A stretch of 64,000 nt of DNA from contig NZ_CP059209.1 of NCBI RefSeq assembly GCF_014252075.1, positions 544,818 to 608,817 of the forward strand, in the 5' to 3' direction. The notes beneath the pieces are model-generated. The model was not told the DNA's origin, ran no database searches, and saw nothing but the letters and a program-made list of their open reading frames with translations. Origin of the DNA: Blattabacterium cuenoti (GTDB lineage: Bacteria > Bacteroidota > Bacteroidia > Flavobacteriales > Blattabacteriaceae). Shown in pieces: positions 9,724 to 24,661 of the stretch. A program made the position numbers and the translations under genes. How positions within the stretch are numbered: position 1 is the first letter of the stretch; each line of letters starts with the position of its first letter.

Positions 9724-9799
9724 TCAAAAACTTTAACATCATTAGATAATCTAGGGATTAAATTTTCTATCATTTCTAATATTTTTAACGATAAAAGTT

Positions 9800-9825
9800 A
9801 TTATGTTCAGATATTATGTTCAGAT
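9800..9825. repeat. Exact 13-bp tandem repeat (two copies)
   Basis: The unit attatgttcagat occurs twice back to back (9800-9812 and 9813-9825) without a mismatch. It could be a double binding site or a recent slippage duplication. Confidence 0.9.
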
Positions 9826-10033
9826 TAAAAAATATTCTTTCAAATATCGAAAAATATTTCTGATTAAAAAAAGGAAGATGACAAAAGAAAAAAAATAAAT
9901 ATTTTTTTCGTATTTATCTGATAATGTTTTTATATAATAAAAAAATATTTTATGATAAAATCAAAAAAACTATTAAAATAATTAAAAAATGTTGTTTTAT
10001 TTTCGTTCTTGTAAGATTCAAGTAAAATTACTA

Positions 10034-10052
10034 ATACAGGTGAAATCTGTAT
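10034..10052. repeat. Inverted repeat upstream of secDF
   Basis: ATACAG (10034-10039) and CTGTAT (10047-10052) form a perfect 6-bp dyad around a 7-base spacer, about 120 bases before the secDF start. It could be an operator or an RNA hairpin. The short arms make chance occurrence possible. Confidence 0.4.
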
Positions 10053-20208: not shown

Positions 20209-20940
20209 TTATTCAACGTTTCCAAAACGACGTTTTCTTTTTTGATAATTGATGATGGCTTCAAAGAAATCTTTTTTTCGAAAATCAGGCCACAAAATAT
20301 TTGTAAAATACAGTTCTGCATAAGCAGACTGCCAAAGCAAAAAATTGCTAATACGTTGTTCTCCACTAGTTCTGATGATTAAATCGACATCTGGTAAATC
20401 TTTAGTGTATAAATGATCTTGAAAAATAGAATCATCTATATCTCTTAATGAAAATAAACCATCGCAAATTTTTTTAGCAATGTTTTTCGTTGCTCTTAAA
20501 ATTTCTCTTCTAGCACTATAACTTAGTGCGAGTATCAAGGTTCCTGATGTATTATGTTTGGTTTTTTTCATGAAAAAAAATAGTTCTTTTTGAATAATTT
20601 CGGAAAATCTTTCAATTTCTCCTATTGTAATAATTTTCACATCTTTCTCATGAATTTCTTTTAAATGAATTTTTAAATTCGTATGAAATAAACGCATTAA
20701 ATCATCTATTTCTTTCTTTGGTCTATTCCAATTTTCATAAGAAAACACATATAAAGTCATATAAGGAATTCTCAATTCTTTGCATCCGTTTATAGTTTCT
20801 CTTACTGATTGTATTGCTTTTTCATGACCAAATGTTCTTAATTTTCCTTTTTTTTCGGCCCAACGACCATTTCCATCCATAATAATAGCTACATGATGAG
20901 GAATATTATTATGATCTATTTTTTTTAATAAATTTTCCAT
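20209..20940 (-). CDS. uppS: Undecaprenyl diphosphate synthase (isoprenyl transferase)
   Basis: Cis-prenyltransferase that makes the C55 lipid carrier for peptidoglycan and LPS sugars. 243 residues. It has the catalytic Asp22 in IIMDGNGRWAEKKG, FGHEKAIQSV, the hydrophobic cleft TLYVFSYENWNRPKKEI and the C-terminal RTSGEQRISNFLLWQSAYAE and WPDFRKKDFFEAI. It starts 59 bases after nadK and is 12 bases before bamA. Its substrate supply depends on the isoprenoid pathway to which the frameshifted mevalonate kinase nearby belongs. Confidence 0.96.
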   Translation of the reverse strand: MENLLKKIDHNNIPHHVAIIMDGNGRWAEKKGKLRTFGHEKAIQSVRETINGCKELRIPYMTLYVFSYENWNRPKKEIDDLMRLFHTNLKIHLKEIHEKDVKIITIGEIERFSEIIQKELFFFMKKTKHNTSGTLILALSYSARREILRATKNIAKKICDGLFSLRDIDDSIFQDHLYTKDLPDVDLIIRTSGEQRISNFLLWQSAYAELYFTNILWPDFRKKDFFEAIINYQKRKRRFGNVE

Positions 20941-21990: not shown

Positions 21991-22919
21991 ATGAAAGAAT
22001 CTTTATTTTCTGCAAAAGTTTTGTTATTTGGAGAATATGGAATTCTAGAAAACTCAAGTGGCCTTTCTATCCCTCACAATTTTTATAAAGGAACTTTAAA
22101 ATTTAATTCTGTACTTAATAAAGATATTTTATGTTCTAATCATGAAATTAAAAAATATTATAATTTTTTATCTGTTTTAGAAAAAAAAAACTAATTTTAA
22201 CAAAATTAGATCTAAAAAAACTACGTTTAGATATACAAAGAGGGTTATCTTTTCATTCAAATATCCCTCAGGGATATGGAATAGGAAGTTCTGGAGCATT
22301 AGTTGCAGCCATTTATGACAAATATGCAAAAGATAAATTCAAAAAATTTTTGAAAAATGAAAATATAATAATTTTGAAAAAAATATTTAGTCAAATGGAA
22401 TCTTTTTTTCATGGAAAAAGCTCCGGAATAGATCCTTTGATTTGCTATTTAAATTTGCCTCTACTTATTCGTTCAGAAACAGATATATCCATAATCGGAC
22501 TTCCCAAAAAAAACAAAGGAGAAGGAGCTGTTTTTTTATTAAATTCTGGAGTTCCTAGAAAAACTTCTTCTATGATAGAATTTTTCTTTGGAAAATTAAA
22601 ACATGATAAATTCAAGAAAATTCTAAGAGAAGAATTTATAAAATACAATGAAAAATGTATTGAATCTTTTTTAAAAAAAGATTTCAAAATTTTATTAAAA
22701 AATGTTAAAAAACTTTCTACTTGGGTTTTTCATCATTTTCGTCCTATGATTCCAAAAAATTTCCGGAAAATATGGAAAGAAGGAATATTTAATAATATTC
22801 ATTATTTAAAATTGTGTGGATCTGGAGGAGGAGGATTTATTTTGGGATTTACTCCAAATTATGACCTTTCGAAAATAAAATTGGAAAAATATACAATGGA
22901 AGTCCTCTTTCGTTTTTAA
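21991..22919 (+). pseudogene. Mevalonate kinase (GHMP kinase), split by a frameshift at an A10 tract
   Basis: Two frames together give one mevalonate-kinase-like protein of the flavobacterial type. The first frame (21991-22194) begins MKESLFSAKVLLFGEYGIL and ends in a stop right after ten A's (22181-22190). The second frame is open from about 22191 to 22919 and contains the ATP-binding PQGYGIGSSGALVAAIYDKY, then SQMESFFHGKSSGIDPL and the C-terminal CGSGGGGFILGF. One extra A (A11) or two fewer (A8) would restore a protein of about 309 residues. No other damage is seen, so the gene may be a very young pseudogene, a sequencing error, or functional through transcriptional slippage. It would phosphorylate mevalonate for isoprenoids. 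Confidence 0.85.
22181..22190 (+). other. A10 homopolymer at the mevalonate kinase frame break
   Basis: Ten consecutive A's directly before CTAA. In the first frame the TAA is read as stop; with one more A the frame runs on into the GHMP ATP-binding motif. A-tracts of this length are known slippage sites for RNA polymerase in AT-rich endosymbionts. Confidence 0.85.
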
Positions 22920-23643: not shown

Positions 23644-24071
23644 AAAAAATAACCATTGTAAATGGTCCTAATTTGAATCTTTTAGGAAAACGAGAACCAG
23701 AATTATACGGAACTGAAAATTTTCTAGATTATCTTAATAAGATAAGAAAAAAAAAACTTTTCTCTAATATAGAAATTATTTACTATCAAAATAATAGTGA
23801 AGGTAAAATTATAGATATTTTGCATTCTTTAGGATTTCAATCGGATGGTATTGTATTGAATGCAGGTGCCTACACTCATACTTCTATAGGAATTGCTGAT
23901 GCAATCAAATCTATACCAGCTCCGGTTATAGAAATTCATATTTCCAATATTCATTCAAGAGAATCTTTCAGAAAAAAATCATTCCTTTCTCCAGTGTGTA
24001 AAGGAACTATTTTTGGTTTTGGTTTAAAATCCTATGAATTAGGAATAATTAGTTTTTGTTTACAGGATTGA
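23640..24071 (+). CDS. aroQ: 3-dehydroquinate dehydratase, type II
   Basis: Third step of the shikimate pathway. 143 residues from the ATG at 23640, which overlaps the rluB stop; a longer frame from 23601 is read-through. The family pattern is intact: NGPNLNLLGKREPELYG with catalytic Tyr23, NAGAYTHTSIGIADAI, and EIHISNIHSRESFRKKSFLS with the catalytic histidine. It forms a dodecamer in other bacteria. The last 40 bases overlap the 3' end of engB on the other strand. Confidence 0.95.
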   Translation: MKKITIVNGPNLNLLGKREPELYGTENFLDYLNKIRKKKLFSNIEIIYYQNNSEGKIIDILHSLGFQSDGIVLNAGAYTHTSIGIADAIKSIPAPVIEIHISNIHSRESFRKKSFLSPVCKGTIFGFGLKSYELGIISFCLQD

Positions 24072-24661
24072 TAAAAATCATTTAGTTTTTTTTTAATATA
24101 TCTAATAATATTATCTCTTCCATATTTTTTCTTTGCGGAAATTTTAAACCATACCGGCATAATTAAACCGTTTTTTTCAATTTTTTCGATACAAAAAGAA
24201 ATATTTTTTTCAATAAATTGATGATTTAATTTGTCTATTTTTGTAAAAACAATGCAAAAATTTATTTTTGTACTGTTTAATCTTTGCATGAAATCCAAAT
24301 CTATTTGTTGTATCACATATCTAGAATCTATTAACAGAAATAAACAAACAAGATTTTTTCTATGAAAAATATAATCTACAATTAATTTTTGTGTTTTTTT
24401 TTTATTTTTTTTTTCTGAAAAAAATCCATATCCCGGTAAATCGATCAAATACCATTGATCATTGATCAAAAAATGATTGATATATTGAGTCCTTCCAGGA
24501 TAAGAAGAAACTTTAGCTATTTTTTTTCTTCCAGTTATGCAATTTATTAAACTGGATTTTCCAACATTAGAACGTCCTGCAAAAGCATATTCAGGAAAAT
24601 CATCAATCAACATGTTGATCCTTCTTGAACTTCCTTTAAATTTTACAGAAAAAATTTTCAT
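24032..24661 (-). CDS. engB: Ribosome biogenesis GTPase EngB (YihA/YsxC)
   Basis: 209 residues from MKIFSVKFKGSS (24661); four residues more are possible from 24673. GTPase motifs: G1 GRSNVGKSS, switch region SSYPGRTQYINHF, G3 DLPGYGF and G4 TKIDK, with a C-terminal SAKKKYG. It acts in 50S subunit assembly. The start overlaps the end of the upstream hydrolase gene by 26 bases, and the end overlaps convergent aroQ by 40 bases, which is unusually long. Confidence 0.94.
   Translation of the reverse strand: MKIFSVKFKGSSRRINMLIDDFPEYAFAGRSNVGKSSLINCITGRKKIAKVSSYPGRTQYINHFLINDQWYLIDLPGYGFFSEKKNKKKTQKLIVDYIFHRKNLVCLFLLIDSRYVIQQIDLDFMQRLNSTKINFCIVFTKIDKLNHQFIEKNISFCIEKIEKNGLIMPVWFKISAKKKYGRDNIIRYIKKKLNDFYQSCKQKLIIPNS

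Follow-up and report, generated by a model that had tools for sequence, protein, structure and literature searches.

A GHMP kinase gene, probably that for mevalonate kinase, is split at a run of ten A's in Blattabacterium, a symbiont of cockroaches, and we consider it highly likely that the gene is functional and that its frame is corrected at the level of expression. In support of this reading, the tract and its phase are conserved, both halves of the gene are under selection, and the frame has been repaired repeatedly among relatives. The break is unusually widespread in the genus and probably old.

The split kinase gene

The window, the whole stretch of 64,000 nucleotides that was analysed, belongs to a Blattabacterium genome of 636,273 bases (G000). 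The upstream frame of the kinase gene (21991 to 22194, plus strand) begins with an ATG at 21991, ends with a TAA at 22192-22194 and encodes 67 amino acids that align with the N-terminus of intact orthologues. The remainder of the kinase, 246 amino acids, is encoded by the downstream frame (22179 to 22919, plus strand, stop at 22917-22919), which lies in the -1 frame relative to the first. The two overlap at an A10 tract (22181 to 22190, plus strand), the presumed slippage site, which is read in the upstream frame as GAA AAA AAA AAC TAA and includes A_AAA_AAA; one additional A or two fewer would join them. An initial annotation made from this sequence had taken the two frames for one kinase split at the tract, and the frames and the orthologue alignment both agree, a single intact orthologue of 315 amino acids spanning the two pieces. 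With such an orthologue, and with 17 of the 49 species broken at this very position, the split gene is not a product of chance. The same annotation had described the motifs on both sides as preserved, with no second lesion. This also holds: GEYGIL, GIGSSGA, HGKSSGID and GSGGGGF are all found across the two frames, and the G000 gene carries no lesion besides the A10 break.

Both frames are open from 22164 to 22194 (plus strand; TTTTTTATCTGTTTTAG-A10-CTAA), and the change of frame must fall within this stretch. In a relative, G018, sequence comparison reduces the shared open stretch to AAAAAAAAACAAATTTTAA, which points to the A run as the site of the frame change. Directly 3' of the tract, at window positions 22191-22209, there is a perfect 8-bp inverted repeat, CTAATTTT AAC AAAATTAG, of which G011 alone among the broken relatives has a full copy.

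The break across the genus

We searched 49 Blattabacterium genomes and compared all 49 kinase loci, a comparison of the tract that the initial annotation had itself proposed and that revealed the same break in other species, selection behind it and its repeated repair. The gene is kept in every genome, intact in 32, split in 17 and lost in none. All split kinases share one phase, with a length of 2 modulo 3, that is, one base short; 15 of them have an A10 tract and the other two A11, and no second lesion was found in any of the 17. Thus, the kinase shows a single indel in an A/T tract of at least nine bases and is otherwise intact, and the break is common to related species without decay. In free-living flavobacteria the position of the tract is an ordinary hydrophilic stretch, and many of the intact Blattabacterium kinases have no tract comparable to it. 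On a tree built from three genes neighbouring the kinase, the split kinases are distributed over one clade of 24 species and two single lineages, G002 and G060.

Within the affected clade, nine relatives have regained the frame, and they did so by different changes, whose sizes are our reading of the aligned sequences. The ten-A run is kept in G016, G061 and G022, which carry changes of +4, -8 and -2, respectively, upstream of it, and in G063, the sister of the split G001, where 2 nt were lost downstream. The run is A8 in G059 and G012, A7 in G006 and A11 in G056, and in G005 an A12 is accompanied by the loss of one T. Where the A10 is unchanged and the compensation lies outside it, some ancestor must have been out of frame, and its gene must still have merited repair. 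A two-rate model that allows repair reaches a log likelihood of -26.3 versus -37.3 for irreversible loss (11 log units better) and assigns P = 0.94 to a split gene in the common ancestor of the 24 species. Because homopolymer lengths mutate fast, repeated toggling of the tract is possible, similar states can arise repeatedly and single breaks are hard to date; in either case, the kinase escapes decay in its split state. If the 24-species clade corresponds to Blaberoidea, the ages of the hosts would put the break at possibly more than 100 million years.

These comparisons also bear on the possibility that the genome really contains A11 and that the break is an error of sequencing or assembly, which the initial annotation had held to be equally likely. 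Although runs of ten bases are error-prone on some platforms, an identical call and phase recur in 17 separate genomes, other genomes have in-frame calls of A11, A12 and A13, and the compensating changes outside the tract in G016, G061 and G063 make sense only with a real A10. We therefore regard an error as very improbable.

Selection behind the break

Behind the tract, dN/dS is 0.16-0.32 in six pairs of broken genes versus 0.09-0.23 in intact pairs. The downstream frame of G000 compared with its two nearest broken relatives gives 0.20-0.25, and one broken-broken pair at a dS as high as 0.6 gives 0.16. One-sided tests for dN<dS behind the break yield p values from 8e-4 to 4e-17, with the pairs within G000, G011 and G018 not being mutually independent. 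The region behind the break is thus under purifying selection, and the relaxed selection and accumulation of lesions that characterize a pseudogene are not seen in the kinase. The expectation of the initial annotation that a dead gene should have collected stops is borne out by a neutral simulation on the tree of G000, G011 and G018, which produced a mean of 8.3 stops and in 0 of 60 runs none at all, versus the observed 0.

A gene that did die is found 12 kb from the kinase. Between terC and secDF (window 9769-10052, minus strand), G000 contains a remnant of an ABC-transporter gene with two stops. G057, G049 and G059 carry this gene at full length, whereas the copy of G018 is interrupted by five stops and gaps and nothing of the gene is left in G011; it is a true pseudogene, decayed in all three of G000, G011 and G018. 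At the same divergence, then, a dead gene is shredded whereas the kinase is clean, which makes it unlikely that the kinase is dead.

A true pseudogene inactivated too recently to look damaged would be in keeping with the listing of mvaK as a pseudogene in a genome of the same genus, that of the symbiont of Periplaneta fuliginosa (PMC6039017), and with the fact that mvaD is split as well in G000. Very recent splits would show a low dN/dS in any case, and single tips of the tree may be dead. For the kinase as a whole, however, this explanation needs up to 17 independent recent deaths, all in one phase and with no later lesion, and it has to accommodate nine regained frames. The pair that has a dN/dS of 0.16 at a dS of 0.6 and the fate of the truly dead gene, shredded or gone in the three genomes, argue further against it, and we give it little credence.

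It is also conceivable in principle that the two frames yield two polypeptide chains which come together as a single enzyme, and the conservation of both halves would agree with this. In G000, however, the ATP-binding motif GIGSSGA (22278-22298, plus strand) precedes the first ATG of the downstream frame (22395-22397, plus strand), so that an independently started fragment would be without the motif. The first Met lies 3' of the motif in nearly all split kinases, and in 13 of the 17, G000 included, no ATG, GTG or TTG occurs between the tract and the motif. The segment from the tract to the first Met is itself still under selection (pN/pS 0.14-0.33, with two of the six tests weak at p 0.05 and 0.14). 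A fragment with a start of its own would not account for the conservation of this segment, and we consider an enzyme of two chains hardly credible.

Proposed correction of the frame

The initial annotation had suggested rescue by slippage. The comparison strongly supports rescue over death, and that the slippage is one of RNA polymerase is a step that we infer. Polymerase slippage on A runs of at least nine bases is established in bacteria, and we think it the probable main route of correction. RNA polymerase would slip on A10 and add one A in a fraction of transcripts, whose A11 would join both frames and allow a full-length kinase to be made; the remaining transcripts would give a useless 67-amino acid peptide. 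Selection would then preserve both halves, and the break could persist over long periods, the tract having the length that slippage requires. Correction in the RNA, the addition of a single A and the efficiency of the process are what we propose here. Among symbiont genes broken at poly(A), corrected transcripts are reported to amount to 12-50% (PMC5009743), and in Buchnera, homopolymers account for 151 of 157 insertions in transcripts versus only 16 of 57 deletions (PMC5574713). Polymerase slippage in Buchnera thus mostly adds bases, which fits the one-base-short phase of the kinase.

A bias toward the -1 phase is expected from ribosomal -1 slippage as well, and therefore cannot distinguish polymerase from ribosome. 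In that case, ribosomes would shift on the A run (A_AAA_AAA or A_AAA_AAC before the stop) and produce the full-length kinase from unedited mRNA. Each of the 17 broken kinases needs exactly a -1 shift, and in nearly all of them the codons of the upstream frame are GAA AAA AAA AAN, with a slippery heptamer among these letters. As in programmed -1 frameshifting of the dnaX type, a slippery A run is followed shortly by a stop. Unlike in the dnaX type, we found no conserved stimulators, and only one kinase product would be useful. A conserved stimulatory hairpin was considered and rejected: the fold in G000 is good (z -3.5) and is not shared by the other split kinases. G000 and G011 have an 8-bp stem directly 3' of the tract that the remaining broken kinases lack or form far less stably, and no fold after the tract is common to the 17, which speaks against stimulated ribosomal frameshifting. 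No Shine-Dalgarno-like site was seen by eye upstream of the tract.

Splits at A tracts in other genes have a similar bias, the -1 phase predominating by about 17 to 1 in our count of independent events, as ribosomal -1 slippage would also predict. In this phase are split aroQ in G016, G041, G054, G058 and G063, engB in G016 and G058, an era-like gene in G011 (A10), a murF-like gene in G057 (A13) and a pckA-like gene in G063 (A9). mvaD is split in seven of the 49 genomes, in five of them in the -1 phase. In the two others, G000 and G011, mvaD has a +1-phase split, a kind that ribosomal -1 slippage cannot repair. Together with the established status of polymerase slippage on A tracts of at least nine bases, this leads us to rate ribosomal frameshifting as improbable. 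Added single A's would not repair a +1-phase mvaD either, and for this reason a loosening of selection on the pathway is conceivable. The mvaD break of G000 lies outside the window (G000:C1, about 298100) at A9 and A11 runs.

Other runs at these loci deserve mention. In the window, aroQ has an in-frame A10 at 23747-23756, and the same place holds A9-A13 in the five genomes where the gene is split; the aroQ of G022 has an odd split near an A8 run. On the minus strand, engB contains two ten-base runs at window positions 24394-24414 that are in frame in G000. The engB of G018 has a run of N at the equivalent place, and the splits of G016 and G058 are nearby.

Two further candidate signals were discarded. 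A mutational bias toward deletion as the source of the single phase found no support among changes in run length, where gains numbered 12 versus 6 losses; this count covers A/T runs of at least seven bases in three relatives and changes not divisible by three, is small, includes changes that are not all true indels, and used an unreliable coding mask. The lack of AAG inside the tract is uninformative, since only about 5-9% of Lys codons are AAG here.

A last alternative to polymerase slippage places the variation in the DNA, with A10 and A11 chromosomes generated by replication slippage in a multi-copy symbiont and the A11 copies supplying the enzyme. Symbionts of this kind are often polyploid, and tract length varies from A8 to A13 between close relatives. 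Against this, A10 is the consensus in 15 of the 17 broken genomes, and a stable A11 minority would be needed in many lineages, so that we think mixed chromosomes most unlikely. Mixed chromosomes or ribosomal -1 slippage would leave almost the same trace as slippage of RNA polymerase.

Identity of the kinase and its pathway

The initial annotation had named the product mevalonate kinase. The second piece contains the GHMP kinase N-terminal domain (PF00288, GHMP_kinases_N; 30.3 bits, cut-off 22.3) with its GxGSSGA motif, and a profile of the intact relatives matches the mevalonate kinase of PDB 2x7i (E 1.6e-7). The domain, the motifs and the 2x7i match are those of a mevalonate kinase of the GHMP family. 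Unlike the mevalonate kinases of TIGR00549, the intact relatives score only 60-72 bits versus a cut-off of 163, and the homologue from a free-living flavobacterium likewise falls under this cut-off. Thus, we consider the identification as mevalonate kinase probable, and the exact substrate is not proved. An AlphaFold model of an intact relative is weak (mean pLDDT only 65.6); in it the counterpart of the tract covers the last part of a helix and the adjoining loop.

Neither IspH of the MEP route nor HMG-CoA reductase was found in the G000 genome, which leaves the lower mevalonate route, and mvaD is present in 49 of 49 genomes. This gene content fits a published model in which mevalonate is supplied by the host (PMC3819652). 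The kinase would be needed for undecaprenyl phosphate and menaquinone. As the initial annotation had pointed out, uppS, which uses the product of the pathway, is encoded about 1 kb from the kinase gene (20209 to 20940, minus strand).

Relation to known systems and significance

The type of rescue proposed here is already known. Frameshifts at poly(A) in Buchnera and Blochmannia are rescued by transcriptional slippage (Tamas et al. 2008, doi 10.1073/pnas.0806554105, as related in PMC5009743 and PMC3017870), and ancient homopolymer frameshifts under selection were described in Blochmannia (Wernegreen et al. 2010, doi 10.1093/molbev/msp290, as related in PMC3017870). The kinase resembles the first cases in that an AT-rich insect symbiont has a single indel in a long A tract of an otherwise intact and undecayed gene. 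It differs from them in the gene concerned, in belonging to Bacteroidota and in that its evidence is comparative, whereas corrected transcripts (12-50%) were measured there. With the Blochmannia cases it shares a break that is common to several species in a gene that is not degraded, and it differs in that 49 genomes are compared here, of which 17 are broken in one and the same phase and nine have regained the frame. The phylum, the breadth of 49 species, the series of repairs and the single phase are what is added. We found no paper on slippage in Blattabacterium itself in a literature coverage that is incomplete. A bolder reading would make the A10 break an old selected device: most of a large clade would have been out of frame since its ancestor, slippage in RNA or at the ribosome would set a low and possibly regulated enzyme level, and the genus would filter its breaks down to the one-base-short phase that slippage can repair. 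We offer this as a speculation that is more probably wrong than right by a wide measure.

The kinase is very probably active, to judge from its sequence across the genus. Annotation labels such genes as pseudogenes, and metabolic models rest on such labels; the call made on mvaK (PMC6039017) should be re-examined in view of the present comparison in other genomes. The mvaK tract in 49 genomes constitutes a natural experiment on how long a frameshift is tolerated, by which routes it is repaired and whether slippage selects a single phase. If the proposed correction is true, rescue by slippage would extend from gammaproteobacterial symbionts to Bacteroidota.
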